64,000 nt of DNA from assembly GCF_030814475.1 (NCBI RefSeq), contig NZ_JAUSVF010000001.1:3168001-3232000 (forward strand). The letters are read 5' to 3'. A model generated the notes under the pieces. It saw only the letters and a program-made list of their open reading frames with translations, did no database searches and was not told the DNA's origin. This DNA comes from Pararhizobium capsulatum DSM 1112. GTDB lineage: Bacteria; Pseudomonadota; Alphaproteobacteria; Rhizobiales; Rhizobiaceae. The translations under genes were made by a program, and so were the position numbers. The first letter of the stretch is position 1. Each line of letters begins with the position of its first letter. Below are positions 28,958 to 48,279 of this stretch, piece after piece.

Positions 28958-28984
28958 GTCAGCTGCTTATAGTTTGAAGCGTAG

Positions 28985-29697
<713 letters not shown>

Positions 29698-31013: not shown

Positions 31014-32675
31014 CTAACCAAGCGGAATATACCCAATCCCCTTGGCCGCAATTTCCTCAAACGACTCCTCATAACCCGCATCCGCATAGCGGATGACGCC
31101 GAGCGCCGTATCATTGGTCAGCGCATGGGAAAGCCGCTCATCCGCAGCCTCAGTGCCATCCGCCACGACCGTCACGCCGCAGCTGGTCATGTAACCAGCA
31201 TAACCGCCGCCGCCGGAGTGGACGACGACGAGGTCGGCCATCGATGAACAAAGCAGCATGGCGTCGAGCAGCGGCCAGTCGGCGATGGCATCAGAGCCGT
31301 CCTTCATCCGTTCCGTCATGATGTTCGGATGCGCCATGGCCCCGGCATCGAGGTGATCGCGGGAGAAGGCGATCGGGCCTTTCAATTCGCCGGAGCGAAC
31401 GAGCGCATTGACCGCAACGGCAAGATCAGTGCGCTCGCCATGGCCGAGCCAGGCGATGCGGGCCGGCAGGCCTTCGAAGGGGATATGCTGGCGGGCAAGC
31501 TTAATCCAGTTGGTGACGATCTTGTTGTCCGGGAACATCTCCAGCAGCAGATCGTCGATGCGGGCGATATCGCTTTCCTCGCCGGAAAGCGCCATCCAGC
31601 GGAAGGGGCCGATGGCGCGGGCAAACAGCGGGCGCAGATAGGCTTCCGTGAAGATGCGGATATCGAAGGCGTTGGTAACGCCGCCTTCGCGCGCCTGCGT
31701 GCGAATGAGGTTGCCGTTGTCGAAGACCTCCGAGCCCCGTTCTTGAAACTCCAGCATGGCGCGGACATGATCGGCGATCGAGGCGCGGCTGGCGGCCATC
31801 AGTTGCCCTTGCCCGTCTTCCCGCAGGTGCTTCACCTCATCGAGGCTCATGCCCTTCGGCACGTATCCATAGAGGAGATCATGCGCCGATGTCTGGTCGG
31901 TAACGATATCCGGCACAATGCCGCGCCGGGCGATTTCCGGGTAAATCACAGCGGCATTGCCGACGAGGCCGATCGAGGTGGCGCGTTTTTCCTTCACCGC
32001 CGCGTCGATCATCGCCAGCGCCGTGTCGAGATCGGGGGCGATATGTTCGAGATAGCCGATCGCCCTGCGCTTTTCGGCCCGCTCCGCATCGATATCGATG
32101 CAGAGGATGGCAGCGCCCGCCATGCGGCCGGCGAGCGGCTGCGCCCCGCCCATGCCGCCGAGGCCCGCCGTCAGGATGAAGCGGCCGGCAAGTTCGCCGC
32201 CGAAACGGTTTTCGGCGATGCGCATGAAGATTTCATAGGTGCCCTGGATGACGCCCTGGCTGCCGATATATTGCCATGCACCGGCCGTCAGCCCGCCCCA
32301 GCAGATCAGCCCCTTACGTTCCAGCTCGTAGAAGATCTCGGCCTTGGCCCATTGGCCGACGATGTTGCAATTGGCCATGATCACCAATGGCGCCTTAGGA
32401 TGAGTCTTCAAGAGAGCGACCGGCTTGCCCGACTGGATGACCAGCGTCTGGTCCTCGTCCATCTCGATCAGTGTCTTGACGATCGCCTTGTGGGACGCCC
32501 AGTTGCGCGCGGCCTTACCGAGCGCCGCATAGACGATCAGCTTTTCCGGGGCTTCACCGACCGAGAGCACGTTTTCGAGCAGCCGCAACAAGGCCTCCTG
32601 CCGCCAGCCCTTGGCGCGAAGCTCCGGGCCGCCGGGGATCGGGAAATCGGGATGACGGGGATTGGGCTTCGGCAT
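31014..32675 (-). CDS. Urocanate hydratase family protein, probably thiourocanate or S-methyl-thiourocanate hydratase
   Basis: NAD-dependent hydratase of 553 residues, close to HutU length. The urocanase framework is clear: LTAGAWQYIGSQGVIQGTYE, GLGGMGGAQPLAGRMAGAAI (NAD site), TDQTSAHDLLYGYVPKGMS, GSDAIADWPLLDAML and DGTEAADERLSHAL. The conserved glycine/histidine stretch of canonical HutU (HHGGGVGxGxSxHxG) reads HSGGGGYAGYMTSCG here, implying a changed substrate pocket. It is the last gene of an operon with a MIO-less lyase, hydantoinase, carbamoylase and DUF917 protein, and no hutH, hutI or hutG is adjacent. I therefore infer hydration of thiourocanate or its S-methyl form. Start after AGGAGACGACA. 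Confidence 0.85.
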   Translation of the reverse strand: MPKPNPRHPDFPIPGGPELRAKGWRQEALLRLLENVLSVGEAPEKLIVYAALGKAARNWASHKAIVKTLIEMDEDQTLVIQSGKPVALLKTHPKAPLVIMANCNIVGQWAKAEIFYELERKGLICWGGLTAGAWQYIGSQGVIQGTYEIFMRIAENRFGGELAGRFILTAGLGGMGGAQPLAGRMAGAAILCIDIDAERAEKRRAIGYLEHIAPDLDTALAMIDAAVKEKRATSIGLVGNAAVIYPEIARRGIVPDIVTDQTSAHDLLYGYVPKGMSLDEVKHLREDGQGQLMAASRASIADHVRAMLEFQERGSEVFDNGNLIRTQAREGGVTNAFDIRIFTEAYLRPLFARAIGPFRWMALSGEESDIARIDDLLLEMFPDNKIVTNWIKLARQHIPFEGLPARIAWLGHGERTDLAVAVNALVRSGELKGPIAFSRDHLDAGAMAHPNIMTERMKDGSDAIADWPLLDAMLLCSSMADLVVVHSGGGGYAGYMTSCGVTVVADGTEAADERLSHALTNDTALGVIRYADAGYEESFEEIAAKGIGYIPLG

Positions 32676-32710
32676 TGTCGTCTCCTGTTTGACCTATGGA
32701 GAGCGCGATA

Positions 32711-32749
32711 CCCCCCTCTGTCCCTACGGGACATCTCCCTCTCAAGGGG
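32711..32749. repeat. Half copy of a GC-rich intergenic repeat (CCCCTCTGTC family)
   Basis: CCCCCCTCTGTC, then GGGACATCTCCC and CTCAAGGGG. The same blocks occur at both ends of the element at 43731-43891 and in the one at 53449-53597. Here only one end is present. Confidence 0.7.
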
Positions 32750-32785
32750 TGAGATTGTTCTTTTTCAATCGCCGCACTCGCGGTT

Positions 32786-32916
32786 CCCTCTTCTCCCCAG
32801 CGGGGAGAAGTGCCGAGCGAAGGCGAGGCGGCGATGAGGGGCGGCACGGCAAATTACGAGAGCCGCCCCCTCATCCGGCACTGCGCGCCACCTTCTCCCC
32901 GCTGGGGAGAAGAGGG
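32786..32916. repeat. 131-bp inverted-repeat intergenic element overlapping the TfoX-like gene
   Basis: The ends are perfect 25-bp inverted repeats (32786-32810 and 32892-32916), each built on CTTCTCCCC and GGGGAGAAG. GATGAGGGGCGGC and GCCGCCCCCTCAT form an inner imperfect pair. No transposase is encoded. This is the rhizobial mosaic-repeat style of element, and it supplies the 3' end of the neighbouring coding sequence. Confidence 0.85.
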
Positions 32917-33254
32917 AGTGCGCCGCTAATCCTCTCTTGGCAATGTCCCCACGAACGCATCGCATCATTCAGCAATTTTCGCCGCAACTCATCATCCCCA
33001 TAGGCATCCGGGCCGGCGCGCACCCATCCGGGCATCCTGCGGCTCGACATCATTTCCTCGATATCCGGCAAGGCCAGCGCCCAGCCTTCATTGCCCCTGC
33101 CGAGCCGGATCATCAGGCCGCGATCGCTGGCGCCGCAGAGCAGATGTCCATCCAGCATCCAGCAAAGTCCGCCGAACATGCGCTTGCGCACAAGCCCGTG
33201 CAGGTCCTCGAGTTCGGCCTCGATCAGCTCTTCCAGTCCCTCGTCGCGCGCCAT
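32871..33254 (-). CDS. TfoX N-terminal domain protein
   Basis: Small protein of 127 residues. Residues 1-100 match the TfoX_N/YjhX-like fold: VRKRMFGGLCWMLDGHLLCG followed by GLMIRLGRG and MPGWVRAGPDAYGDDEL. The gene starts 5 nt after the DUF917 stop, inside the predicted ergothioneine operon. The last 14 or so residues (LPLLPSGEKVARSAG) are encoded by the intergenic repeat at 32786-32916, so the native C-terminus has apparently been replaced. The role is unknown; TfoX_N proteins outside competence regulation have no defined biochemical function. There is no sign that it is catalytic in the pathway. Confidence 0.78.
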   Translation of the reverse strand: MARDEGLEELIEAELEDLHGLVRKRMFGGLCWMLDGHLLCGASDRGLMIRLGRGNEGWALALPDIEEMMSSRRMPGWVRAGPDAYGDDELRRKLLNDAMRSWGHCQERISGALPLLPSGEKVARSAG

Positions 33255-33259
33255 GACCG

Positions 33260-34360
33260 TCAGCCTTTCACGCCATCGAGGGCGTATTTCGCAAGCTCGA
33301 TGCCCATCGCCTTTTCCACCGACGGATAGACGGAGGGATCGAGCACGCTGGAGGCGAGCGGGATGACGGTCTTGGGCACATGCAGCACGAAGATTTTCAT
33401 GCCGACTTTCAGCTGGCCGACGCTCAAGGGCTCACCCTCCGGCGAAAGCGTGGTGATGACGTCGGGGAAGGTCGCGAGCCGTTTGCCCCCTGCATTCTCC
33501 ACCGCCATGTATTCGTTCATGACGTGGAGTACCGTGAGGCCATCCCCCTTCCCCAGAGTCACCGTGCCGATATCGAAGGCTTCTTTGGTATAGACCACCG
33601 ATTTGTCGGTGATTTCGCCCTCGGCAAGGATGGCGCCACTGGTGGTCCGCACGATGGCATCGATGATCGCATGGCCGCCCCTGGCTTCCGCCGCGATGAT
33701 CGCCTCCCCGAGAGTCAACGCGAGCGTGATGCCGCCGAGCGCGGCGTTGGCCTTGACGTAAGAGGCGCGGACCGGATTGCGGCAGGAGGCGATGAAGCCA
33801 CCGGACATATCGGAGGCCGTGCGCAGGATCGGCGAGACCTTGGCCGTCGCGCCGCGCACGACAAGCTCGATATAGCGGTTCTCCTCGCGATTGCCGCCGA
33901 CGGCGGTCTGGATCATCGGCTCGGGCGAGCCGGCAAGGCCGATCGAGCCCATGTCGCCGGTCGGATGCGCGCGGATATCGCCGACGGCGTCGACAACCTT
34001 GGGGCCGAGAATGGCTGATGGCAGCCAGCCGTTCAACGTCGAGGATTTGCCGTTCTGACCGACGATAAGGCCCGAAAGCTTTTCGCCCAATGCCTCCTGC
34101 AGCATCTCGACTGCCTTTACGTAATCGACGCCGCGCATCTCCCAGGGCGTGGTCGAGGCCGGGGCGCCGATGGCGGCGGCGGTCGCCACCCAGTCGTTCG
34201 CATCGAGCTCATCAATGGAGACCAGTTCCGGCTTGCCGATAGAGACCGCGGCGTAGCCGAGCATGCGGCCGTGATCGGCCCAGCCCCCGCCGCCGGCGGC
34301 ATAAACGGAGCCACCCTTCACCGCCGCCTCGACATCCTTTTCCTTCAAGATGCGTCCCAT
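33260..34360 (-). CDS. DUF917 / S-methyl-thiohydantoin desulfurase family protein
   Basis: Protein of 366 residues starting MGRILKEKDVEAAVKGGSVY and continuing AAGGGGWADHGRMLGYAAVS, the glycine-rich N-terminal signature of DUF917 (renamed S-Me-THD in Pfam, as I recall). The C-terminal part contains GDGLTVLHVMNEYMAVENAG and YPSVEKAMGIELAKYALDG. Its ATG overlaps the upstream hydrolase stop by 1 nt. With urocanase-like, hydantoinase and carbamoylase genes in the same operon, the expected reaction is removal of sulfur (or methanethiol) from the thiohydantoin propionate to give hydantoin-5-propionate. The function is inferred from family name and context. Confidence 0.85.
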   Translation of the reverse strand: MGRILKEKDVEAAVKGGSVYAAGGGGWADHGRMLGYAAVSIGKPELVSIDELDANDWVATAAAIGAPASTTPWEMRGVDYVKAVEMLQEALGEKLSGLIVGQNGKSSTLNGWLPSAILGPKVVDAVGDIRAHPTGDMGSIGLAGSPEPMIQTAVGGNREENRYIELVVRGATAKVSPILRTASDMSGGFIASCRNPVRASYVKANAALGGITLALTLGEAIIAAEARGGHAIIDAIVRTTSGAILAEGEITDKSVVYTKEAFDIGTVTLGKGDGLTVLHVMNEYMAVENAGGKRLATFPDVITTLSPEGEPLSVGQLKVGMKIFVLHVPKTVIPLASSVLDPSVYPSVEKAMGIELAKYALDGVKG

Positions 34361-35628
34361 TATGTCTGCTCCTGTAGCTCGGTATCGAGGCGGCGCACGG
34401 CGCCGACAAGCACGGCTGCGCCCAGCGTGATATCGTCGTTTTCGGCCCATTCGTCCGGCGTGTGGGACCGGCCCTCGCGGCAGGGAACGAAGATCATGGC
34501 GGAGCGCGAAATCCGCGCCATCCAGGCCGCGTCATGACCCGCGCCGGAGGCCATGCGGCGGAAAAGGGCGCCGGCATTTTCGGCCGCAGCCTCAAGCGCC
34601 GCCATCACCGTGATATCCGCAGGCGTCGGCATATTGTCGGAAACGATCTTGGGCGAGGATACCGTGACGCCGCGATCGCGCTGCAGCTCGACAGCCATGC
34701 GATCAACCTCGGTGATGAAACGCTCCATATCCTCACGCCGCTCGGCGCGGGCATCGATCAGCAGCCGGGCGCGCGAGGGCACGACATTGGCGGCATTCGG
34801 TTCGATTTCGAATTCGCCGACCGTCGCGGTGAAATGCCACTCGCCTTCGGAGAGCCGAAGCGCGACACGTTCGACATCGGCCACCAGCGCCGCACCCGCG
34901 ACCAGCGCATCGCGCCGCGCGCCCACCGGTGTCGTCCCGGCGTGATCGGCCTGGCCCTCGATGAAAATCTCGATGCGGGTGATGCCGGCGATCGCGGTGA
35001 CGATGCCGATGTCGCGGCGTTCGTTTTCCAGAACCGGCCCCTGCTCGATATGCAGTTCCAGAAAGGCGCTGATATCGGTGCGCTTAAGCTGGGCGATCCT
35101 TGATGGGTCCCCGCCCGCATCGACGATGCCCTGACGCAGAGTCAAATCCCCCTCGCTACGGCTCAGCCATCCATCCGGGATCAGCCCGGCCATGCCGCGG
35201 CTGCCGATACAGGAGACGCCGAAGATCGAGACTTCCTCCGCGAGGAAATCGACGATCTCCAGATCATGATCGAGGCGGATGCCGGCATCATCCAGCGCGC
35301 GCGCCACTTCAAGAGCGGCGGCAACACCGGCGATACCATCGAAGCGGCCGCCTTCCGGCACTGTATCGGAATGCGAGCCGAGCATGATGGTGCCGAGGCC
35401 GGATTTGCGGCCCTTGCGTTTTCCGATCAGGTTGCCGCTGGCATCGATACGGGTCTCAAGACCGGCGGCCTTGAACTGGCGATCGAGGAAGGCGCGGCCT
35501 TCGAGAAACATCGGCGTGAAGGCGCGGCGGGTGTAGGGCCTGTCGGGCTCGGTGATCCGCGCCAGCCCCTTGATGACGTCGGCAATGCGCGTCGCATCAA
35601 CCGGCAGATTGGTCTGCGATGCCTTCAT
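34360..35628 (-). CDS. Zn-dependent N-carbamoyl-L-amino-acid hydrolase/allantoate amidohydrolase family
   Basis: M20/M28-type amidohydrolase of 422 residues. Metal-binding motifs are LGSHSDTVPEGGRFDGIAGV (His, Asp), FLAEEVSIFGVSCIGSRGM (Glu), LELHIEQGPVLE (His) and the C-terminal SGAGHDAAWMARI plus EGRSHTPDEW (His). These fit HyuC/AmaB/AllC enzymes that split N-carbamoyl amino acids to amino acid, CO2 and NH3. In this operon the likely substrate is N-carbamoyl-L-glutamate made by the upstream hydantoinase. It overlaps the hydantoinase stop by 4 nt and the DUF917 start by 1 nt. Confidence 0.9.
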   Translation of the reverse strand: MKASQTNLPVDATRIADVIKGLARITEPDRPYTRRAFTPMFLEGRAFLDRQFKAAGLETRIDASGNLIGKRKGRKSGLGTIMLGSHSDTVPEGGRFDGIAGVAAALEVARALDDAGIRLDHDLEIVDFLAEEVSIFGVSCIGSRGMAGLIPDGWLSRSEGDLTLRQGIVDAGGDPSRIAQLKRTDISAFLELHIEQGPVLENERRDIGIVTAIAGITRIEIFIEGQADHAGTTPVGARRDALVAGAALVADVERVALRLSEGEWHFTATVGEFEIEPNAANVVPSRARLLIDARAERREDMERFITEVDRMAVELQRDRGVTVSSPKIVSDNMPTPADITVMAALEAAAENAGALFRRMASGAGHDAAWMARISRSAMIFVPCREGRSHTPDEWAENDDITLGAAVLVGAVRRLDTELQEQT

Positions 35629-37007
35629 CCGATCGCCCCCGCAAGCGGCAGGCTTGCCGGCGGCCGCACGAAGCGGCCGTCGCCGGGGGCGGCCAGCACC
35701 TTGCCGTCTTCATAGATCTTGCGACCGCGATTGTAGGTCGCCGCCACGCGCCATGGCAGGCGGATGCCGTTGTAAGGCGACCAGCCAACGACATTGTTGC
35801 CGCTCTCGGCAGCGTCGTAGACATAAGCCTCGGGCGTCAGCACCGCGATATCGGCATGCTTTCCGACTTCCAGCGCGCCCTTCTCGTGATCGAGGCGGAA
35901 GTGTCGCGCCGGGTTCAGCGCCATCAACTCGGCCGCGCGGGTGAGCGGAACGCCACGCTCCAGCGCGCTCTTGATAAACAACGGCACCATCACCTCCAGC
36001 CCCGGTACGCCGGAGGAATTGGCGAGCATATCCGGATTGGTCTTGCGGTTTTCCGACCAGCTGACGTGATCGGTCGAAACCAGTGTGATATTGCCCTCGG
36101 CTACATGCCGCCAGAGTTTTTCCACCTCGGCGCGCGGGCGGATCGGCGGGTTGATCTTGGCCTTGCCGCCGAGACGGCGCACGTCGTTTTCCTCGTCCAG
36201 TACCAGATAGTGGATGCAGCATTCAATTGTCGCGCGAAAACCTTGTGCCCGATAGCTGCGGGCGATGTCGTAGCCACGTCCTACCGAGCAATGAACCACA
36301 TGAGCCGGGCAGCCGGTGGCGGCGCCGGTCTCATAAATCTGGTTGGTGGCGAGCAGTTCCGTCAGCGGCGGGCGCGACAGGCCATGGGCGCGGTAATCGG
36401 TGATGCCGGCGGCCTTGACCTTCTCGATTGCAGCGCGGACGGCCTCGTCATCCTCGTTGTGGACACCTGCCGTCAGCCCTGTCGGGGCGATAGCGGCAAA
36501 GCAATCTGCCAGCAATGCGGCCGGGATACGCGGAAACCGCTTCGGGTCGGTGCCGAAGGTCGAGAACTTGAAGGCCGCGACGCCTGCCTCGACCATTTCG
36601 GGAATACGTGCCGACCCTTCCTCGGGATCGATCGTGCCGTAAAGCGCGAAATCGATACGGGCCTGCGCCCCGGCATGGGCAATCTTGCGGCGCACGGCAT
36701 CGCCCGAGCAGACGAGATCGCCCTCGTCATAGGGCATATCGACAATGGTGGTGACGCCGCCGGCTGCCGCCGAGCGCGTCGACCAGATGAAATCCTCCTG
36801 ATCCTTCTGGCTCAGCGAATGCACCTGCGCATCGATCGCACCGGGCAGGATCAGCGCCTTGCCGAGATCATGGCTTTCTCGCGCAGAGGGCATCGCGCCC
36901 TGGCCGAGAACGGCGATGCGCTCGCCGATGACGCCGATATGGCCGTCCTCGACGATCCTGTCGGGCAGAACCAGCGTTCCCTTCAAGACGAGATCGAAAT
37001 CGGCCAT
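35625..37007 (-). CDS. Hydantoinase/dihydropyrimidinase-dihydroorotase family amidohydrolase
   Basis: Cyclic amidohydrolase of 460 residues with binuclear-metal TIM barrel motifs. ALILPGAIDAQVHSLSQKD has DxQxH, a known variant of the first HxH pair. FKFSTFG carries the probable carboxylated Lys, GVHNEDD and AHVVHCSVGRGYD the two His, and STDHVSWSENRK the Asp. The C-terminal GALEVGKHADIAVLTPEAY is typical of the family. It would open the hydantoin ring, here predicted as hydantoin-5-propionate to N-carbamoylglutamate. It starts 12 nt after the lyase-like gene behind AAGGGAACC and overlaps the next gene by 4 nt. Allantoinase activity cannot be excluded by sequence alone. Confidence 0.88.
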   Translation of the reverse strand: MADFDLVLKGTLVLPDRIVEDGHIGVIGERIAVLGQGAMPSARESHDLGKALILPGAIDAQVHSLSQKDQEDFIWSTRSAAAGGVTTIVDMPYDEGDLVCSGDAVRRKIAHAGAQARIDFALYGTIDPEEGSARIPEMVEAGVAAFKFSTFGTDPKRFPRIPAALLADCFAAIAPTGLTAGVHNEDDEAVRAAIEKVKAAGITDYRAHGLSRPPLTELLATNQIYETGAATGCPAHVVHCSVGRGYDIARSYRAQGFRATIECCIHYLVLDEENDVRRLGGKAKINPPIRPRAEVEKLWRHVAEGNITLVSTDHVSWSENRKTNPDMLANSSGVPGLEVMVPLFIKSALERGVPLTRAAELMALNPARHFRLDHEKGALEVGKHADIAVLTPEAYVYDAAESGNNVVGWSPYNGIRLPWRVAATYNRGRKIYEDGKVLAAPGDGRFVRPPASLPLAGAIG

Positions 37008-37019
37008 GCCCGGTTCCCT

Positions 37020-38558
37020 TCAAATCGCGAGAGCAAAGAAATCGTCGAATTCCGGCATCGGCGCCGCCGAGACGAAACTGCGGCGCAGATCGGGGCAGGA
37101 AAACGCCCTCCGCAGCGCCTCGATCTCTTCCGAGAGCGGCCGGTCCTGCAGGTACATCGGGCTAATGTCACGCACCCGGTCATAGGCAAGCTTGGCGGTC
37201 GCCTGCGGTTTGTCGCCGAGCAGATCGACGGCCTGCGCCGACAGCAGCGCCTCGATGGCGCCCATCTGGCAGAGATCACGCACCTGCGCCTCCATGCGCT
37301 CGACGATCAGCGGCAGGAAGGTTGCCTCCTCCTCAAGTCCGCCGGCAACGACGATGGATTGCGCCGACAGCGGCACGGCATTGGACTGGACGCGCATGTA
37401 GAGTTCGACGGCGAGCTTCATCAGCGGGCCGAGGCCGCTTGCGACTTCGCCGGGCGCGACGAGATTGATCGGCAGGTTGCGCCGAACGCCGTTGGAGAGG
37501 AGAACGCAGCGATTGAGCACGTTGCGGGCGACATGGGAGAAGGCGATCTGTGCCGTCTCAATATAGAGCGTCGTCGTCAGCGGCAGCGAGGCACCGGAAG
37601 AATGCACCTGTCCGCCCAGCACCACCGGATTGTCATCGGAGAGATAGGTCGCATCGAGCAACCGCTCGGCCGCAACCACGAGCGTATCAGCTGCTGCACC
37701 GAAGACCTGCGCCGTCATGCGCAGGCTCAAGGGATCGTGGATCGCCGTCGGCAGCGGCCAGTCGACCATATCCGACTGGCCATAAAGCCAGGAACCGACC
37801 AGCGCCTCGCCACGCGTGCCAAGCGTCGCAGCCACCCGCCAGGGATCGGCGGACGCACCGAGCGCCAGCGACGACATGAGCCCCGTCACCATCAGAACCC
37901 GCACACCTGATGCGGCCTCGCGAATGACTTCGGCCGCGGCAGCATAGGCCGTGGCGTTGACGCTGAGGGCCGCCAGTGCATCCCGCGGCTGCATGCCGAA
38001 CGGCGTTATACCCGCGCGTATCAAAGCTTCGCTCGCATCGAGAAGCTCGCCGCCATAAAAGGCCTTGCCGACCCCCGTGAGCACCGAGGCAACCTGCCCC
38101 ATCAGCCCGATATCGGCGCATCCGATCGAGCCGTGGCGGTGCACCGCAGGCACCACGTCATGCTCCAGAAGGGCCAGAAACGCATTGACCAGCTCGACGC
38201 TGCATCCGGTATGGCCGCCCAGCGCTGTATTGACCCGGATCGCCATCGCTTTCCTGACGACGGACGAGGAGAAGAGTGGCCCGGTGCCGAAATGATGGGC
38301 TTTGACCAGCGAGGCATTGAACTGATCCAAATCGCCGGCAGTCCAGAGTTTGTCTTTCATCGAACCGACGCCGGTATTGGCGCCGTAGACAGGAAGGCCC
38401 AGAGCGATGCGATCGGTGATGACAGTGCGGGCGCTGCGTACTCTGTCCATGGCTAGATCGGACACGACAGTGCTGTGCTCGCCGCTGCCGATTCTCTCCA
38501 GAGTCGAGAAGCTGAGCGGTTGCCCTGTCAAAACAATGGTTTTCGTCGCCGCCTGCAT
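37020..38558 (-). CDS. Aromatic amino-acid lyase family protein without MIO triad (ergothionase candidate)
   Basis: HAL/PAL-superfamily protein of 512 residues. The family frame is clear: LPVYGANTGVGSMKDKLW, FNASLVKAHHFGTGPLFSSS, YLSDDNPVVLGGQVHSSGAS and QSIVVAGGLEEEATFLPLIV. Where true ammonia-lyases have GSVGASGDLAPL, this protein has GSIGCADIGLMGQ, so the Ala-Ser-Gly that cyclises to the MIO electrophile is Cys-Ala-Asp. The DNA is unbroken across it. Ergothionase, which eliminates trimethylamine from ergothioneine, belongs to this superfamily and works without MIO because the leaving group is already quaternary. As first gene of the operon ending at 31014, it fits that role. Divergent from the tandem-HTH regulator. 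Confidence 0.85.
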   Translation of the reverse strand: MQAATKTIVLTGQPLSFSTLERIGSGEHSTVVSDLAMDRVRSARTVITDRIALGLPVYGANTGVGSMKDKLWTAGDLDQFNASLVKAHHFGTGPLFSSSVVRKAMAIRVNTALGGHTGCSVELVNAFLALLEHDVVPAVHRHGSIGCADIGLMGQVASVLTGVGKAFYGGELLDASEALIRAGITPFGMQPRDALAALSVNATAYAAAAEVIREAASGVRVLMVTGLMSSLALGASADPWRVAATLGTRGEALVGSWLYGQSDMVDWPLPTAIHDPLSLRMTAQVFGAAADTLVVAAERLLDATYLSDDNPVVLGGQVHSSGASLPLTTTLYIETAQIAFSHVARNVLNRCVLLSNGVRRNLPINLVAPGEVASGLGPLMKLAVELYMRVQSNAVPLSAQSIVVAGGLEEEATFLPLIVERMEAQVRDLCQMGAIEALLSAQAVDLLGDKPQATAKLAYDRVRDISPMYLQDRPLSEEIEALRRAFSCPDLRRSFVSAAPMPEFDDFFALAI

Positions 38559-38691: not shown

Positions 38692-39909
38692 ATGGATATC
38701 GCCACCCTTGCGCTGGTTCACGCCGTCCTGGTCGAGCGCGGCATCCGGCGCGCGGCGAGAGTGACGGGCCGTCCTCCCGCCAGCGTCACGGCCGCGCTGA
38801 AGCGGATGGAGGCGGCAATCGCCGTGCCGCTCGTGCGCCGCGAGGGCGGTAATCTTGTCCCAACACTCGAGGCGCAGCGACGATTCGGTGATTTTGCAGC
38901 AGCAAGACTGAAGATCGAGGCGCTGCTTGCTCCGGCAAACCGGGAAACGGTGGCGGTGCCCGCCATTGGTATCAGCGCGCTCGAAAGGTTTCTGACCGTT
39001 GCCCGCAGCGGCAGCATCCGCAGCGCTGCCCAGCAGATCGGCGTCGGGCAGCCGCAGTTGACGCGCCAGATCGCCGACATGGAACGCACGTTGGGCTACG
39101 CTCTCCTCACCCGCTCCGCCGCTGGCGTCGCCTGTACCGCGCAGGGGCTTGATGCCATGCCTGTGGCAGAAGCGCTGAGCGAAATCTGGGCGAGATTGTC
39201 GCGCGCCTCGGCCGATCGTTTCCGTAGGACCGCGGCGACGTGGCGGCTCGGCTCCGTCATGCCGCTCGGCCCGGAAAGCGAGATCGCCCGCATGCTGGCG
39301 TCGCTGACCGCGCGCTGGCATCAGGCACGGCCGCGCCAACCGCTGTTCCTTTCCAGCACCACCGCAGACGAACTGATAGCCGGGCTGAAGAGCCGCCGCT
39401 TCGACGCTGTGCTGCTCGACATTGCCGATTTTCCCAGCGAGTTCGAAGGGCGGCTGGTATCACAGGCACCGCTTGCGCTTGCCGGACAAGCCGAGTTTTT
39501 CGCGCAAGGTCGTCCGCTCGCCGATATCCTCACGTCTCACCCCATCGTCGTTCCCAGCCTGCGCAGCGGCCTTCGCCAGCAGGCGGCCCGCTTTCTCGAA
39601 AACACATTGAACGACGTGGAACGCCAGCGGCTGACGATAGCCGAAGTTGATTCCATCCCCGTGATCATCAACCTCGTTCTGAACCACGGATATCTGTCGG
39701 TGCTGCCGCAAAGCTCGCTGTCGCGGGTTCGCAATGCACCGGCGATGATCCGGCTGGATGCGAGCTACGCACAGTCGCTTTCGCTCGTCTGGCCGAAGAA
39801 CGCGCTCTCCCGCCAACTGGGAGAAACGATGCTGGCGATGATGCGCGCTGACGAGAACGGTATGACCGAAGCGGAATCAGTTTCGCCACATCCGGCACGA
39901 ACCATCTGA
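38692..39909 (+). CDS. LysR-type regulator with two tandem HTH segments
   Basis: Protein of 405 residues, about 100 longer than a usual LysR regulator. Residues 1-60 look like one LysR HTH (HAVLVERGIRRAARVTGRPP, then SVTAALKRMEAAIAVPLVRR). Residues 80-140 are a second, better one (LERFLTVARSGSIRSAAQQI, then VGQPQLTRQIADMERTLGYA). The rest is a normal substrate-binding domain (FLSSTTADELIAGLKSRRFD; VIINLVLNHGYLSVLPQSSL). It is divergent from the predicted ergothioneine operon and is the obvious candidate regulator. ATG 38692 is used; ATG 38635 would add a non-family leader. Confidence 0.85.
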   Translation: MDIATLALVHAVLVERGIRRAARVTGRPPASVTAALKRMEAAIAVPLVRREGGNLVPTLEAQRRFGDFAAARLKIEALLAPANRETVAVPAIGISALERFLTVARSGSIRSAAQQIGVGQPQLTRQIADMERTLGYALLTRSAAGVACTAQGLDAMPVAEALSEIWARLSRASADRFRRTAATWRLGSVMPLGPESEIARMLASLTARWHQARPRQPLFLSSTTADELIAGLKSRRFDAVLLDIADFPSEFEGRLVSQAPLALAGQAEFFAQGRPLADILTSHPIVVPSLRSGLRQQAARFLENTLNDVERQRLTIAEVDSIPVIINLVLNHGYLSVLPQSSLSRVRNAPAMIRLDASYAQSLSLVWPKNALSRQLGETMLAMMRADENGMTEAESVSPHPARTI

Positions 39910-39958: not shown

Positions 39959-40930
39959 TCAACTCTTGAGCTTCAGCCGCCGGCGCGTCTCGCTCGGGCT
40001 TTCGCGGTAGTGGGCGCGATAGCTACGGGAGAAGGCGGATGATGAGTTGAAGCCGGTGGCGGCCGCGATATCGGCGAAATCGGCGCGGCTTTCGATGACC
40101 TTGCGGCGGGCGGCATTGAGCCGGAGCGCGAGATAATGGACATGGGGGGCGACGCCCATCGTCTCCTGAAACAGCGTCTGCAGATGGCGGGCACTCACCC
40201 CGAGGCGACGGGCGAGACGAGTAAGCGTCAAGGGTGCCTCCACCGTCTCCTCCATCAGCTTTACCGCAGCACCCACCCTGTTGTCGGAGATGCGCATATT
40301 GCCGATCGTCGGCACCTGCAGCAGGTCGCCGCGGGTGCGCTCCTGCTCGTAGATGAACAGGCGCGAGACTTCGAGCGCCAGCGAATAGCTGTGCTGGCGG
40401 CGGATCAGCTCCAGCATCAGATCGAGCGTCGGCAGCGAACCGCCTGTGGTGATGCGCTTGCCGTCGATGACGAAGCGCTCTCGCACCATCGTCACCTGCG
40501 GATAGGCCGCCGTGAAATCCTCGAAATCCTCCCAGTGGTTGGTGGCGGAGAAATTGTCGAGAAGGCTGGTCTCGGCCAGAAACCACGACCCGGCCTCGAT
40601 CCCCGCCATCAGTTCGCGATGCCGGGCGGTGCGCGACAGGAGCATCTTCAGTTGCGTCGTCGCATAGGCCCGCCAGTTGTAGCTCGACAGAACGAACAGC
40701 GGCGACGTTTCATTCTGTGGTCGAAAAGGGCCTGAAACCGGGATCGGGATGCCGCTCTTGGTCTCGATCGCATTGCCGTCCGGGCTGAAAATCTGCCAGT
40801 CGTAAAGCACCTTTCCGGCGATGCGATTAGCCGCGCGAAGCGGCTCGATGACCGACGCGACGAGGATAAGATTGGTCTCCGGCAAGACCAGCAGGTCGAT
40901 ATGCTGGGTCTCATCCTGCGGAACGAGCAT
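39959..40930 (-). CDS. GlxA-type AraC-family regulator (CdhR/GbdR-like)
   Basis: Transcription factor of about 323 residues. The N-terminal DJ-1/PfpI-like domain covers about 12-190 (IDLLVLPETNLILVASVIEP; GIEAGSWFLAETSLLDNFSA). The C-terminal double AraC HTH covers about 220-320 (LTLTRLARRLGVSARHLQTL; DIAAATGFNSSSAFSRSYRA). Amidotransferase-like AraC regulators of this type control carnitine and glycine-betaine catabolism in pseudomonads (CdhR, GbdR). It is divergent from the BKACE gene of the predicted carnitine module, so I infer the same role. The ATG at 40930 follows GGAG; GTG 40948 is the alternative. Confidence 0.9.
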   Translation of the reverse strand: MLVPQDETQHIDLLVLPETNLILVASVIEPLRAANRIAGKVLYDWQIFSPDGNAIETKSGIPIPVSGPFRPQNETSPLFVLSSYNWRAYATTQLKMLLSRTARHRELMAGIEAGSWFLAETSLLDNFSATNHWEDFEDFTAAYPQVTMVRERFVIDGKRITTGGSLPTLDLMLELIRRQHSYSLALEVSRLFIYEQERTRGDLLQVPTIGNMRISDNRVGAAVKLMEETVEAPLTLTRLARRLGVSARHLQTLFQETMGVAPHVHYLALRLNAARRKVIESRADFADIAAATGFNSSSAFSRSYRAHYRESPSETRRRLKLKS

Positions 40931-41041
40931 TCGTATGTCTCCAGCCACTCATTCCGAAAATGTATAGCACGCATCCGAGAAAGGAAAGCAGATCGCTTTG
41001 TCTTGCCTCGTAATGGACGTCAAGAACAAGGGGAGGCTTTT

Positions 41042-41944
41042 ATGCCACTAAGCATGAATCGCGACGTTTTCATCACCTGTGCCGTTACCGGCTCCGGCGA
41101 CACCGCCGGCAAATCACCGCATGTGCCGAGATCGCCAAAGGACATCGCAGCATCGGCCATCGACGCCGCGAAAGCAGGGGCGGCCATCGTCCACTGCCAT
41201 GTGCGCGACCCGGAAACCGGCGTGCCGAGCCGTCGTAACGACCTTTATAAGGAGGTCACTGATCTCATTCGCTCCGCCGATGTCGATGTCGTGCTGAACC
41301 TCACGGCCGGCATGGGCGGCGACATGATTTTCGGCAATGTCGAAAACCCGCTGCCCCTCAACCCTGATGGCACCGACATGGCAGGCGCGACCGAACGCGT
41401 ATCGCATGTGGCCGAATGCCTGCCGGAAATATGCACGCTCGATTGCGGCACGATGAACTTCTCGCTCGGCGACTACGTCATGACCAACACGCCGTCGATG
41501 CTGCGTGCCATGGCCAAGATGATGACCGATCTCGGCGTGCGCCCGGAAATCGAAGCCTTCGATACCGGCCATCTCTGGTTTGCCAAGCAACTCGTCGAGG
41601 AAGGCCTGATCGAGGACCCGGTCCTCATCCAGCTCTGCATGGGCATTCCGTGGGGCGCGCCGGATGACCTCAACACCTTCATGGCGATGGTCAACAACGT
41701 GCCGAAAAACTGGACCTTCTCCGCGTTTTCCATTGGCCGCAACGCGCTTGCCTATCCGGCAGCCGCCGTGCTTGCCGGCGGCAATGTCCGCGTCGGGCTT
41801 GAAGACAATCTCTATGTCGGCAAGGGCCAGCTCGCGACCAACGCGCAACTTGTCGAAAAGGCGGTTGGAGTCATCGAAGGCATGGGCGCCAGGATCATTG
41901 GACCGGCCGAAGTGCGCGAAAAGCTGAAGCTGACGAAGCGGTAA
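41042..41944 (+). CDS. Beta-keto acid cleavage enzyme (BKACE, DUF849), probably 3-dehydrocarnitine cleavage
   Basis: TIM-barrel zinc enzyme of 300 residues. The family condenses a beta-keto acid with acetyl-CoA, releasing acetoacetate and a new acyl-CoA. The metal-binding HCHVRDPETG (two His) and EIEAFDTGHLWF (Glu) are present, together with LNLTAGMGGDM, CTLDCGTMNFS and QLCMGIPWGAPDD. Next to a carnitine dehydrogenase-thioesterase fusion the expected reaction is 3-dehydrocarnitine plus acetyl-CoA to betainyl-CoA plus acetoacetate. The ribosome site is AAGGGGAGG. It is separated from the dehydrogenase gene by a 203-bp repeat element, so read-through or a second promoter is needed. Confidence 0.92.
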   Translation: MPLSMNRDVFITCAVTGSGDTAGKSPHVPRSPKDIAASAIDAAKAGAAIVHCHVRDPETGVPSRRNDLYKEVTDLIRSADVDVVLNLTAGMGGDMIFGNVENPLPLNPDGTDMAGATERVSHVAECLPEICTLDCGTMNFSLGDYVMTNTPSMLRAMAKMMTDLGVRPEIEAFDTGHLWFAKQLVEEGLIEDPVLIQLCMGIPWGAPDDLNTFMAMVNNVPKNWTFSAFSIGRNALAYPAAAVLAGGNVRVGLEDNLYVGKGQLATNAQLVEKAVGVIEGMGARIIGPAEVREKLKLTKR

Positions 41945-41968
41945 AAACTTGCAGTCTAGGCAAGATTA

Positions 41969-42171
41969 CCCCTCACCAAGTTCGTCCAGCCGATCGGCTG
42001 CGCCTCTCGGGGACGAACTATCCTCTCCCACAAGGGGAGAGGAAGCCTGCCGCAAGTTCACCTCGATTTCAAAAGCAAGGGTGTCGCGCGGTTCTTACCT
42101 CTCCCCTTGCGGGAGAGGATAGCAAGCCCGCACGAAGCAAAGCTGAGTGCCTGGGCGCGCTTGGTGAGGGG
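41969..42171. repeat. 203-bp inverted-repeat intergenic element (CCCCTCACCAAG family)
   Basis: The outer ends CCCCTCACCAAG (41969-41980) and CTTGGTGAGGGG (42160-42171) are exact inverted repeats. Inside, CTCTCCC...GGGGAGAGG and CTCTCCCCTTGCGGGAGAGG form two more hairpins. It has no coding capacity and looks like a MITE or rhizobial mosaic repeat. Confidence 0.82.
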
Positions 42172-42220
42172 GAAATCACCGCCCGATGACAGACCGAATT
42201 ATTGAAGAGGTAAAACACCA

Positions 42221-43711
42221 ATGACCAAGATCACCAAGGCGGCCTGTATCGGCGGCGGCGTTATCGGCGGGGCCTGGGCGGCACGCTTCATTCTCGGTGG
42301 CATCGATGTCGCCATGTTCGATCCGCATCCGGAGGCGGAGCGCATTGTTGGCGAAGTCATGGCAAACGCCGAGCGCGCCTATGGCATGCTGACCATGGCG
42401 CCGCTGCCTCCGAAGGGCAAGCTCACCTTCGTCAAGAGCATTGAAGAGGCCGTGCAAGGCGCTGACTGGATTCAGGAAAGCGTGCCTGAACGGGTCGATC
42501 TCAAGCGCAGTGTCATCACGCAGATCGACGCAGCCGCCGATCCGAAGGCGCTGATCGGTTCCTCGACATCCGGCATCATGCCGACCGAGCTGCAGCGCGA
42601 CATGAAGCATCCCGAGCGCATGTTCGTCGCCCATCCCTACAATCCTGTCTATCTCCTGCCGCTTGCCGAACTCGTCGGCGGCGAAAAGACCAGCAAAGCC
42701 ACCCTTGATGACGCTAAGGCAAAGCTTGCGCCGATCGGCATGAAGGGCGTCATCATCAACAAGGAGATCGAGGCCTTCGTCGGCGACCGTCTTCTCGAAG
42801 CCGTCTGGCGCGAAGGCCTGTGGCTGATCAAGGACGACATCTGCGATACCGAAACGCTCGACGATGTGATCCGCTATTCGTTCGGCATGCGCTGGGCGCA
42901 GATGGGCATGTTCGAGACCTATCGTATCGCCGGCGGTGAAGCCGGCATGCGCCACTTCCTCGCCCAGTTCGGCCCCTGCCTGTCCTGGCCCTGGACCAAA
43001 CTGATGGATGTCGTCGATCTCGATGACGAACTGGTCGACAAGATCGCCGGCCAGTCCGATGCGCAATCCGGCGCCCGGGGCATCCGCGACCTGGAACGTA
43101 TCCGCGACGAAAACCTCGTCGGCATCATGCATGCACTGAAGAGTGGCGATGGCGGCAAGGGCTGGGGTGCGGGCAAGCTGCTTGCCGATTTCGAGCAGGG
43201 CCTCTGGGCCAATGCCGAAAAGCCCAAGACAGATCTCGGCCAGGCTCAACCGATCCGCATCCTCGAAACCAAGGTCAATGCCGCCTGGGTCGATTACAAC
43301 GGCCACATGACCGAACATCGCTACCTGCAGGTGTTCGGTGATACCTCCGACGGTCTGCTGCGCCTCATCGGCGTCGATCTCGACTACGTCAAGAACGGCC
43401 ACAGCTACTACACGGTGGAAACCCATATCCGGAACCTCGGCGAAGCCAAGCTCGGCGATGCGCTCTACTCGACCTGCCAGATCCTGTCGCATGACGAAAA
43501 GCGCCTGCACATCTTCTCGACCATCTACAATGCGGACAGCAATGCGCCGGTCGCGACGGCCGAGCAGATGCTGCTGCATGTGGACAGCAAGGCTAGCAAG
43601 GCCGTACCCGCACTGCCGGAGGTGATCGCCAAGGTGACGGCGATTGCGGAAGCTCATGCCTCGCTGCCGGCGCCAGAAGGCGTTGGGCGGGCTGTGGGGC
43701 AGAAGCGGTAG
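42221..43711 (+). CDS. lcdH: L-carnitine dehydrogenase fused to betainyl-CoA thioesterase
   Basis: Two-domain protein of 496 residues. Residues 1-330 are a 3-hydroxyacyl-CoA dehydrogenase-like NAD enzyme: Rossmann IGGGVIGGAWAARFILGGID, SSTSGIMPTELQRDMKHPER, the catalytic region FVAHPYNPVYLLPLAELVGG and FGMRWAQMGMFETYRIAGG. Residues 345-496 are a 4HBT hot-dog thioesterase (VDYNGHMTEHRYLQVFGDTS). Carnitine dehydrogenases of rhizobia carry this fused thioesterase, giving oxidation of L-carnitine to 3-dehydrocarnitine and release of glycine betaine from its CoA ester. The neighbouring BKACE provides the step between. Symbol assigned by family resemblance. Confidence 0.92.
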   Translation: MTKITKAACIGGGVIGGAWAARFILGGIDVAMFDPHPEAERIVGEVMANAERAYGMLTMAPLPPKGKLTFVKSIEEAVQGADWIQESVPERVDLKRSVITQIDAAADPKALIGSSTSGIMPTELQRDMKHPERMFVAHPYNPVYLLPLAELVGGEKTSKATLDDAKAKLAPIGMKGVIINKEIEAFVGDRLLEAVWREGLWLIKDDICDTETLDDVIRYSFGMRWAQMGMFETYRIAGGEAGMRHFLAQFGPCLSWPWTKLMDVVDLDDELVDKIAGQSDAQSGARGIRDLERIRDENLVGIMHALKSGDGGKGWGAGKLLADFEQGLWANAEKPKTDLGQAQPIRILETKVNAAWVDYNGHMTEHRYLQVFGDTSDGLLRLIGVDLDYVKNGHSYYTVETHIRNLGEAKLGDALYSTCQILSHDEKRLHIFSTIYNADSNAPVATAEQMLLHVDSKASKAVPALPEVIAKVTAIAEAHASLPAPEGVGRAVGQKR

Positions 43712-43730
43712 TCTGAAGTCGCCGCTTTTA

Positions 43731-43891
43731 CCCCCTCTGTCTCTTCGGGACATCTCCCCCTCAAGGGGGGATGGGGAGCAAACGGCAAGCTCGGAAACCC
43801 AAAGTGCCGGCGATGAGGAACGTGGGCAGTGAGGGAAAAGAACGATCTTTCCCCTTGAGGGGGAGATGTCGGCAACGCCGACAGAGGGGGG
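43731..43891. repeat. 161-bp inverted-repeat intergenic element (CCCCTCTGTC family)
   Basis: CCCCCTCTGTC with GACATCTCCCCCTCAAGGGG on the left is mirrored by CCCCTTGAGGGGGAGATGTC and GACAGAGGGGG on the right, around about 90 nt of unique sequence. The terminal blocks also occur at 32711 and 53449-53597. It fills most of the gap before the acyl-CoA dehydrogenase gene. Confidence 0.85.
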
Positions 43892-43943
43892 TGAGAGCGA
43901 CAAACGCCGGCCTCCCGATAAACAGATACGAGGGAGAACGACC

Positions 43944-45104
43944 ATGAATTTCGCACTGACAGACGAACAGCAGATGATCGTCAATACCGTGCGCGGCTTC
44001 GTCGAGACGGAGATCTATCCGCATGAGAACGAGGTCGAGCGCACCGGCTTCGTGCCGCCGGAACTCGGCCAGGACATTGCCCGCAAATGCAAGGAGCTCG
44101 GCTTCTTCGGTTGCAACATGCCGGAATCGGTCGGCGGCGCCGGGCTTGACCACCAGACCTTCACGCTGGTCGAGCGCGAGCTTGGCCGCGGCTCCATGGC
44201 GCTCACCGTGTTCTTCGGCCGCCCCTCGGGCATCCTGATGGCCTGCAACGACGAGCAGAAGGAAAAATACCTGCTGCCGGCCGTTTCCGGCGAGAAATTC
44301 GATGCACTCGCCATGACCGAGCCCGATGCCGGCTCGGACGTGCGCGGCATGAAGTGCTTTGCGAGGCAGGATGGCGACGACTGGGTCGTCAACGGCACCA
44401 AGCATTTCATCAGCCATGCCAACATCGCCGATTTCGTCATCGTCTTCATCGCCACCGGCGAAGAGCAGACCCCGCGCGGGCCGAAGAAACTCATTACTTG
44501 CTTCCTCGTCGATCGCGGCACGCCGGGCTTCGAAATCCGCGACGGCTATAGTTCCGTGTCACATCGTGGCTACAAGAATTGCATCCTCACCTTCGACGAA
44601 TGCCGCCTGCCCTCGGCGCAGATTCTGGGTGAGGTGCACAAGGGTTTCGACATCGCCAATGACTGGCTGTATGCGACCCGCCTGACGGTTGCTGCAACCT
44701 CCGTCGGCCGCGCCCGCCGGGCCTTCGATTATGCGTTGTCCTATGCGGCCGAGCGCAAGCAGTTCGGCAAACCGATCGGCGCCAACCAGGGTGTGTCCTT
44801 CAAGCTCGCCGACATGATCACCGAGATCGATGCCGCCGACCTGCTGACGCTCTCGGCCGCCTGGAGGCTCGATCAGGGCCTGCCGGCCAACCGCGAGATC
44901 GCTTCGGCCAAGGTTTATGCCACGGAAATGCTGGCCCGCGTGACGGATGAGGCGATCCAGATCTATGGCGGCATGGGCCTGATGGACGACCTGCCGCTCG
45001 CCCGCTTCTGGCGCGATGCCCGCGTGGAGCGGATCTGGGACGGCACGTCGGAAATCCAGCGGCACATCATCAGCCGCGAACTCTTGCGACCACTGGGGGC
45101 GTGA
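43944..45104 (+). CDS. Acyl-CoA dehydrogenase, probably gamma-butyrobetainyl-CoA/crotonobetainyl-CoA acting
   Basis: FAD enzyme of 386 residues with the ACAD layout: helical N-terminus (MNFALTDEQQMIVNTVRGFV), beta domain with LAMTEPDAGSDVRGMKCFAR and VNGTKHFISHANIADFVIVF, and C-terminal helices with AERKQFGKPIGANQGVSFKL and YGGMGLMDDLPLARFWRDAR. The catalytic base position is within VERIWDGTSEIQRHI. It is first in a coupled trio with a CoA ligase and a CaiD-like hydratase, so the natural substrate is probably a C4 betaine CoA ester. It is not a close match to E. coli CaiA; function comes from context. Confidence 0.9.
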   Translation: MNFALTDEQQMIVNTVRGFVETEIYPHENEVERTGFVPPELGQDIARKCKELGFFGCNMPESVGGAGLDHQTFTLVERELGRGSMALTVFFGRPSGILMACNDEQKEKYLLPAVSGEKFDALAMTEPDAGSDVRGMKCFARQDGDDWVVNGTKHFISHANIADFVIVFIATGEEQTPRGPKKLITCFLVDRGTPGFEIRDGYSSVSHRGYKNCILTFDECRLPSAQILGEVHKGFDIANDWLYATRLTVAATSVGRARRAFDYALSYAAERKQFGKPIGANQGVSFKLADMITEIDAADLLTLSAAWRLDQGLPANREIASAKVYATEMLARVTDEAIQIYGGMGLMDDLPLARFWRDARVERIWDGTSEIQRHIISRELLRPLGA

Positions 45105-45118
45105 TGGAGGCATCCCCC

Positions 45119-47194: not shown

Positions 47195-47973
47195 CAGGAC
47201 CGATCAAGACCCGCCGCGAAGGCGGCATTCTGGAAGTGACGATCGACCGGCCGAAGGCCAATGCGATCGATCTCGTCACCTCCCGGATCATGGGCGAAGT
47301 CTTCCGCGATTTCCGCGACGACGAGACCCTGCGTGTTGCGATCATCACCGGCGCCGGTGAAAAGTTCTTCTGTCCGGGATGGGACCTGAAGGCGGCAGCC
47401 GCAGGCGATGCCGTCGATGGTGACTATGGCGTCGGCGGCTTTGGTGGCATGCAGGAACTGCGCGACCTCAACAAGCCGATCATTGCGGCGATCAACGGCA
47501 TCTGCTGCGGCGGCGGCTTTGAAATCGCTCTTTCCACCGACATGATCCTCGCGGCCGAACACGCGACCTTCGCGCTGCCCGAAATCCGCTCCGGCACCGT
47601 TGCCGATGCCGCCTCCATCAAGCTGCCAAAGCGCATTCCCTATCACATCGCCATGGACATGCTGTTTACAGGTCGCTGGCTGGATGTCACCGAGGCCCAT
47701 CGCTGGGGTTTCGTCAACGAGATCCTGCCCGCCGATAAGCTGATGGACCGCGCCTGGGAACTGGCACGCCTGCTCGAAAGCGGGCCGCCGCTGGTCTATG
47801 CCGCCATAAAGGAAGTCGTGCGCGCTGCCGAAGGCGAGGCCTTCCAGACGACTATGAACAAGATCACCCGCCGCCAGCTGAAGACGGTGGATATTCTCTA
47901 TTCCAGCGAGGATCAGCTCGAAGGCGCCCTCGCCTTCACCGAGAAGCGCGATCCCGTCTGGAAAGGGCGATAA
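47191..47973 (+). CDS. caiD: Carnitinyl-CoA dehydratase (crotonobetainyl-CoA hydratase), CaiD-like
   Basis: Crotonase-fold hydratase of 260 residues. It resembles E. coli CaiD almost end to end: EVTIDRPKANAIDLVTSRIM, FRDDETLRVAIITGAGEKFF, GWDLKAAAAGDAVDGDYGVG and the final residues AFTEKRDPVWKGR. The oxyanion-hole GGGFEIALSTDMILAAEHAT and the LPEIRSGTVADAASI region with the general-base area are present. It interconverts crotonobetainyl-CoA and L-carnitinyl-CoA. It is translationally coupled to the CoA ligase (ATGA overlap). With LcdH and BKACE upstream it links crotonobetaine or gamma-butyrobetaine to glycine betaine. Confidence 0.92.
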   Translation: MTGPIKTRREGGILEVTIDRPKANAIDLVTSRIMGEVFRDFRDDETLRVAIITGAGEKFFCPGWDLKAAAAGDAVDGDYGVGGFGGMQELRDLNKPIIAAINGICCGGGFEIALSTDMILAAEHATFALPEIRSGTVADAASIKLPKRIPYHIAMDMLFTGRWLDVTEAHRWGFVNEILPADKLMDRAWELARLLESGPPLVYAAIKEVVRAAEGEAFQTTMNKITRRQLKTVDILYSSEDQLEGALAFTEKRDPVWKGR

Positions 47974-48279
47974 AAGCAAACGGCGCGCGAGGAAACGCGC
48001 CGAAAGAGACGGCCGAGAGCATGCCACTTCGCATAAGCTATATTTATGCAGTGGAATGAATTTTCATGTGAATACAAAGGGAAATTTTGAAACTAGCCTG
48101 AACAGCAACGGGGATCGTTCATTCAACGAAAACCCCGCAATCAAAATTCGACAGCCGAAAAGGCTGCAAAAACACTGGTGGTTGGGGCCATTGCCATGCA
48201 TGTTGCGCATAGCGAGATACCTCGTCGGACAAAACAAGATTGATCGGCTGAGCCGGCAAACAATAAAGGGAACAGGGGA
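47974..48279 (+). other. 306-nt intergenic region before the peptide-type ABC operon
   Basis: AT-richer than its surroundings. It contains the inverted repeat at 48031-48049 and several TATA-like stretches, so it is likely to be the promoter region of the operon starting at 48280. I see no ORF with a ribosome site. Confidence 0.5.
48031..48049. promoter_or_regulatory. Inverted repeat upstream of the peptide-type ABC operon
   Basis: GCATAA (48031-48036) and TTATGC (48044-48049) are exact inverted repeats 7 nt apart in an AT-rich patch. Possible operator, or the weak terminator of caiD. Confidence 0.35.

Follow-up and report, generated by a model that had tools for sequence, protein, structure and literature searches.

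A predicted ergothioneine-to-glutamate degradation operon in Pararhizobium capsulatum DSM 1112

Introduction

Six minus-strand genes at positions 31014-38558 of a 64,000-nt stretch of Pararhizobium capsulatum DSM 1112 DNA (the window, meaning the whole stretch analysed) raise the question of which compound their products degrade. The original prediction saw in them a route from ergothioneine or S-methyl-ergothioneine to glutamate and leaned toward the S-methyl variant. Judged by sequence, the genes most probably form a complete and conserved ergothioneine degradation operon, the pathway itself being already known. We put at about 0.88 the probability that, thanks to the operon, the cell can draw nitrogen, carbon and sulfur from the antioxidant ergothioneine, degrading it to glutamate. 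From family membership, motifs, gene order and co-occurrence, all of them observed, we infer the substrate and each of the reactions in this organism.

Operon organization and predicted pathway

Enzyme identities were assigned with NCBIfam equivalog models at their curated cut-offs and families with Pfam. Open reading frame (ORF) calls and Pfam confirmed all six minus-strand genes in the families named by the original prediction. In the order of transcription they are:

37020..38558, minus strand: ergothionase-like lyase, 512 aa, histidine ammonia-lyase (HAL) superfamily without the triad behind the 4-methylideneimidazole-5-one (MIO) cofactor; Pfam PF00221 (Lyase_aromatic)
35625..37007, minus strand: ErtD, predicted hydantoin-5-propionate amidohydrolase, 460 aa, cyclic amidohydrolase family; NF058538, 784 bits (cut-off 600)
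34360..35628, minus strand: ErtE, predicted N-carbamoyl-glutamate amidohydrolase, 422 aa, M20 hydrolase family; NF058540, 598 bits (cut-off 520)
33260..34360, minus strand: predicted thiohydantoin desulfurase, DUF917/S-Me-THD, 366 aa from the likely start; NF058529, 595 bits (cut-off 440)
32871..33254, minus strand: TfoX_N-domain protein, 127 aa, accessory; PF04993
31014..32675, minus strand: predicted thiourocanate hydratase, urocanase family, 553 aa; NF058530, 1043 bits (cut-off 930)

The tight coupling claimed for most of the genes holds for the first five, from the lyase to the TfoX_N gene (a 12-nt gap, a 4-nt overlap, a 1-nt overlap and a 5-nt gap), but not for the urocanase homologue. 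The latter follows the TfoX_N gene after 195 nt, a spacer in which a repeat element has its loop and one of its arms. Although the DUF917 reading frame extends up to 34450, its NCBIfam match begins only at residue 33, and translation likely starts at the ATG at 34360, placed in a TAATG together with the stop of the preceding gene.

The ergothioneine-to-glutamate pathway as such is well supported, with four of the six proteins passing equivalog cut-offs and a lyase devoid of the MIO triad at its head. In the first step, the MIO-free lyase would take trimethylamine off ergothioneine and yield thiourocanate, which the urocanase homologue would hydrate to thiohydantoin (2-thio-imidazolone) propionate. 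The DUF917 enzyme would then hydrolyse the C=S to a C=O, releasing sulfide and hydantoin-5-propionate. ErtD would open this ring to N-carbamoylglutamate, and ErtE would convert the latter to glutamate, ammonia and CO2.

Thione or S-methyl substrate

The same series of steps could start from S-methyl-ergothioneine, with the DUF917 enzyme freeing methanethiol from an S-methyl intermediate. The Pfam family is indeed named S-Me-THD, and the S-methyl models match the window proteins with significant E-values. However, the hydratase reaches only 745 bits against the S-methyl-thiourocanate hydratase model NF058531 (cut-off 880) and the DUF917 protein 281 bits against the S-methyl-thiohydantoin desulfurase model NF058532 (cut-off 450), whereas both thio models are passed. 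The profile search against thiourocanate and S-methyl-thiourocanate hydratases had been suggested alongside the original prediction. Both proteins share their superfamilies with the S-methyl enzymes, and the S-methyl pathway was rejected because they score under the S-methyl cut-offs. The S-methyl variant that had been favoured is therefore very unlikely. DUF917 membership, taken earlier as the pointer to it, does not discriminate, since the thiohydantoin desulfurase of the window matches the S-Me-THD family too.

Comparison with solved structures agrees with these scores. The hydratase shows 67.5% identity to 7ned, which was deposited as a urocanate hydratase and which we take to be a thiourocanate hydratase, against 51.5% to 8q9u, presumably the S-methyl enzyme, and 49.1% to the urocanase of a hut-type locus in the same genome. 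Its C-terminal loop, HSGGGGYAGY, is shared with 7ned, the difference seen between these two proteins being one of sequence only; the hut-type urocanase has HHGGGVGMGF at this place, and 8q9u a shortened HSNGDK. The HSGGGGYAG loop recurs in 75 of the 78 hydratases from related loci (described below).

The lyase at the head of the operon

Whether the first enzyme is an ergothionase or a histidine ammonia-lyase was addressed by sequence, motif and fold. In a search of PDB sequences, the closest solved relative of the window lyase was the ergothionase 6s7j (195 bits), and the best HAL-annotated chain was 7tqr (141 bits). Histidine ammonia-lyase owes its MIO cofactor to an Ala-Ser-Gly triad, which neither the window lyase nor 6s7j has: in the alignment, the MIO loop reads GSVGASGD in the Pseudomonas HAL and in two other lyases of this genome, while the same position is GSIGCA-D in the window lyase, SSIGEG-D in 6s7j and GSIGEA-D in a Burkholderia arboris lyase. 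Related loci supplied 75 lyases, of which 74 were aligned with the window lyase after a fragment (L068) had been left out. Where HutH-type lyases have ASG-D, the window lyase and 73 of the 74 have GCA-D; the remaining one, from a poorly preserved locus whose genes look broken (L036), reads otherwise, and ASG occurs in none of the 74. Lys381 is present in all 75 aligned sequences (window included) and in 6s7j, whereas four HAL-family controls have V, I, V and Y there; all of these sequences share Glu409. Y58, N201, K381 and E409, which may include the catalytic residues of ergothionase, are common to the window lyase and 6s7j.

An AlphaFold2 model of the lyase (mean predicted local distance difference test score 84.5, with low confidence at residues 400-412, including Glu409) gave 6s7j as the top Foldseek match, at template modelling (TM) scores of 0.86 and 0.89. 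The fold by itself leaves the question undecided, and it is the motif together with the partner genes that tips the balance to an ergothionase-like lyase. The protein belongs to a divergent clade of predicted ergothionases, whose members databases tend to name histidine ammonia-lyase or aromatic amino acid lyase.

A further HAL-family protein lies near hut-type genes on contig C2 (L011:13973-15466, minus strand). It reads GSAG---Y where MIO lyases have GSVGASGD, so it too seems to be without the MIO triad.

A different starting compound for the same operon would be ergothioneine sulfonate, the oxidised form of ergothioneine. The Treponema ergothionase reportedly accepts the sulfonate too. A catabolic pathway of this kind (Yan 2022) is cited for Agrobacterium radiobacter, a bacterium of the same family, in excerpts of PMC13405746 and PMC9967237. 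A thiohydantoin desulfurase above its equivalog cut-off suits a thione and not a sulfonate, which makes the sulfonate an improbable main substrate here.

Conservation and co-occurrence

Related loci were collected by a desulfurase scan of named genomes and comprise the best 80 of 443 relatives, from rhizobia, Ensifer, Shinella, Devosia and others; as only the best were retained, the sample leans to close kin. All five enzyme genes occur together in 69 of the 80 loci and are collinear in 69 of these 69, so the arrangement is not due to chance. The lyase is found in 75 of the 80. Two loci (L031 and L060) miss one gene at a contig end. Four others (L065, L079, L088 and L089) have no lyase within the locus stretch, and each of their genomes has an orthologue of 52-54% elsewhere, which adjoins ubiE- and ubiB-type genes in the one such genome that is annotated. 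Overall, a lyase 45-90% identical was present somewhere in 8 of 8 genomes examined, the four with a lyase-less operon among them. Reading these four Rhizobiaceae operons as users of thiourocanate was considered and is unneeded, since the lyase is located elsewhere in those genomes.

Of 151 Rhizobiaceae genomes, 16 gave a desulfurase and 13 a lyase (E <= 1e-60), one of the lyases being in two pieces. All 13 fall within the 16 desulfurase genomes (Fisher p 2.8e-16, kinship ignored). In a class-wide sample, 5 of 385 genomes, the organism's own counted, carried the desulfurase.

Observations against the ergothioneine reading and the histidine alternative

Several observations weigh against ergothioneine as the substrate. 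The window lyase is 29% identical to 6s7j and 27% to the Pseudomonas HAL, a small margin, and HALs follow just behind 6s7j in the Foldseek search (TM 0.84 and 0.85). Among NCBIfam models it scores highest with those for HAL, though far under their cut-off (212 vs 524); no ergothionase model was among the matches and no equivalog was passed. Nor are ergothionases alone in having lost ASG, because the HAL-family protein on contig C2 lacks it as well. ErtD and ErtE are no proof of ergothioneine either, since a second cluster on contig C5 that has no matched desulfurase passes both of their cut-offs; for ErtE of the window, in addition, the generic Zn-dependent hydrolase model NF009531 outscores NF058540 (668 vs 598 bits). 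No importer lies within the window operon at 31014-38558. On the side of ergothioneine, a search of the genome for EgtD found none, so the organism would be an ergothioneine consumer, though control genomes in this search likewise gave no positive over the cut-off.

Co-occurrence has its exceptions, too. Three of the 16 desulfurase genomes of the Rhizobiaceae sample are without a lyase at E <= 1e-60, and at the same threshold only 3 of 11 desulfurase plasmid records carry one, the plasmid records alone being considered. On plasmids of Paracoccus aminophilus (L172) and Thalassospira marina (L174), the desulfurase, hydratase, ErtD and ErtE genes are accompanied by a TRAP transporter, and in the latter also by a UbiD-family decarboxylase, with no lyase at E <= 1e-60 on either record. 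The hydratase module can thus stand apart, and these two loci perhaps use thiourocanate itself.

The hydratase also exceeds the cut-off of the HutU model (TIGR01228, 688 vs 375 bits), although NF058530 scores higher. Together with the presence of both the HAL and urocanase superfamilies, this would suit histidine degradation (hut) of an ordinary or an unusual kind that has a hydantoin branch. Against it stand the missing MIO triad of the lyase and the rest of the genome, which has four HAL-family and three urocanase-family genes in total, including a HutH over its cut-off that sits together with a urocanase in the hut-type locus on contig C2. On chemical grounds, moreover, ordinary imidazolone propionate would offer a hydantoinase no oxygen or sulfur at C2. 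The original prediction had argued from the missing hutH, hutI and hutG. These genes are indeed not in the operon, with no HutI or HutG match for its six proteins in the families listed (for ErtD and ErtE, the best 25 NCBIfam matches), but with a hut-type locus present in another part of the genome the argument loses some of its force. Taken together, histidine degradation by this operon is hardly credible, and ergothioneine remains the most probable substrate.

The TfoX_N gene and a dispersed repeat

The TfoX_N gene, counted in the original prediction as a member of the operon, is indeed located within it, but as an optional accessory: it occupies the same slot at 45 of 78 loci (two of the 80, without a hydratase, were left out) and left no tblastn trace at the other 33. 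In the Rhizobiaceae sample, all five close matches (at least 59% identity, own gene included) are beside a desulfurase, and the other 23 matches are at most 46% identical. In the class-wide sample, however, relatives of 58-62% were found away from any desulfurase in three genomes, in two of them beside ketoacyl-synthase and YceG genes and in one with a desulfurase elsewhere on the contig. Given such relatives and the 33 loci without the gene, the data do not support a special role in the pathway. A structure model of the protein had no PDB match at E <= 0.001 and its sequence none at E <= 1, and a literature search for TfoX with ergothioneine returned Vibrio engineering only.

The 3' end of this gene runs into the repeat element already mentioned:

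32788..32914 (approximate limits), no strand assigned: repeat element, two inverted copies of CTTCTCCCCGCTGGGGAGAAG, one of them within the TfoX_N gene at its 3' end

The two inverted copies of this 21-base sequence start about 102 nt apart, and the stretch folds with a z of -6.4. When up to 2 mismatches are allowed, the 21-base arm is matched 97 times in the genome (strands counted apart), and the reversed control has 0 matches. We take the element to resemble the RIME elements of rhizobia, a name given here provisionally. Since aligned close relatives of the TfoX_N protein mostly end near residue 108-110, the last residues of the 127-aa window protein probably arose as a by-product when the repeat overran the gene end.

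Regulator, importer and neighbouring genes

Upstream of the lyase gene, and divergent from it, lies a regulator gene:

38692..39909, plus strand: LysR-type regulator with two LysR-type helix-turn-helix (HTH) domains, 405 aa if counted from a likely start; HTH_1 matched twice, LysR_substrate once

Two HTH domains were present in 6 of 6 LysR proteins checked at ert loci, that of the window included. At related loci, 57 of 58 LysR ORFs have a match to the first HTH ahead of the second, the exception being L036. The divergently encoded two-HTH protein probably controls the operon. A literature search turned up no title on such a regulator.

At ten of the 80 loci, counting the one whose binding protein served as the query, there is an ABC importer whose binding protein is of the OpuAC (glycine betaine) type; in 6 of the 10 the importer sits between the lyase and ErtD genes. 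Pfam confirmed OpuAC in two of the binding proteins, and the nine besides the query show 67-82% similarity to it. An importer of this type at the loci fits a betaine substrate.

Adjoining the operon, a carnitine degradation cluster (40901-53432, plus strand) was found, with genes for BKACE, carnitine 3-dehydrogenase (897 bits, cut-off 592), an acyl-CoA dehydrogenase, a CoA-ligase-like protein, a crotonobetainyl-CoA-hydratase-like protein and an ABC importer with an SBP_bac_5 binding protein. Beside it lies a GbdR-like AraC regulator at 39959-40948. Carnitine genes (BKACE and carnitine dehydrogenase) are alongside in 44 of the 80 related loci. On the other side of the operon, a flavin mononucleotide riboswitch (28980-29133, plus strand; RF00050, 112 bits, gathering score 66) is placed just 5' of the lumazine synthase gene at 29137-29697.

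A second cluster on contig C5

The second cluster, on contig C5 (99.7 kb; L010:5516-14017, about 85515-94016), contains a HAL with an intact ASG, a divergent urocanase, ErtD (680 bits, cut-off 600), ErtE (552 bits, cut-off 520), a deaminase-like amidohydrolase and genes of an amino-acid-type ABC transporter. No desulfurase was matched within the 16 kb stretch. The urocanase is below both thio cut-offs (567 vs 930 and 616 vs 880) and over that of HutU (609 vs 375), and it reads TEMCPCHDP in place of TDQTSAHDP. By tblastn, the same gene set was found on plasmids of Burkholderia ambifaria and Paraburkholderia graminis, with identities to C5 of 72-73% for the urocanases, 53-54% for the lyases, 41-46% for ErtD/ErtE and 28-31% for the amidohydrolase; a Streptomyces record has a urocanase 60% identical. 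Among 398 Pseudomonadota genomes, no orthologue of the C5 urocanase besides its own was found at E <= 1e-185. As the assembly is marked as 4.68% contaminated, C5 could be foreign DNA.

Tentatively, and with rather more doubt than confidence, more than one C2-decorated histidine might feed into hydantoin-5-propionate as a hub in this genome, with the C5 cluster degrading some 2-substituted histidine whose C2 group the amidohydrolase would swap for oxygen. The C5 lyase keeps the MIO triad and therefore points to a primary-amine substrate; 2-amino-, 2-thio- or 2-oxo-histidine would be guesses.

Comparison with known systems

The operon would place a complete ergothioneine sink in rhizobia and their relatives, which are bacteria of soil and roots. 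Of new interest are the lyase clade, the TfoX_N neighbour, the two-HTH regulator, the C5 branch and the betaine-type importer. According to an excerpt of PMC13405746, where the work of Maurer 2019 is cited, ergothionase works without MIO and has been definitively identified in few microorganisms. The window lyase resembles the Treponema denticola ergothionase 6s7j in fold, in its missing MIO triad, where the alignment has a gap of one residue, and in the Lys, Glu and Asn positions, but it is distant from it in sequence; the Burkholderia arboris lyase, encoded near a desulfurase, is nearer to 6s7j (37%).

The five-step catabolism of ergothioneine in bacteria (Beliaeva, Leisinger and Seebeck 2021, as cited in an excerpt of PMC9732360) and the NCBIfam models agree with the predicted operon in having a MIO-free lyase first and four later enzymes, here recognized at equivalog level. 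Compared with that system, the window adds a TfoX_N gene inside the operon, a two-HTH LysR protein and carnitine genes next door, and its lyase comes from a distant clade.

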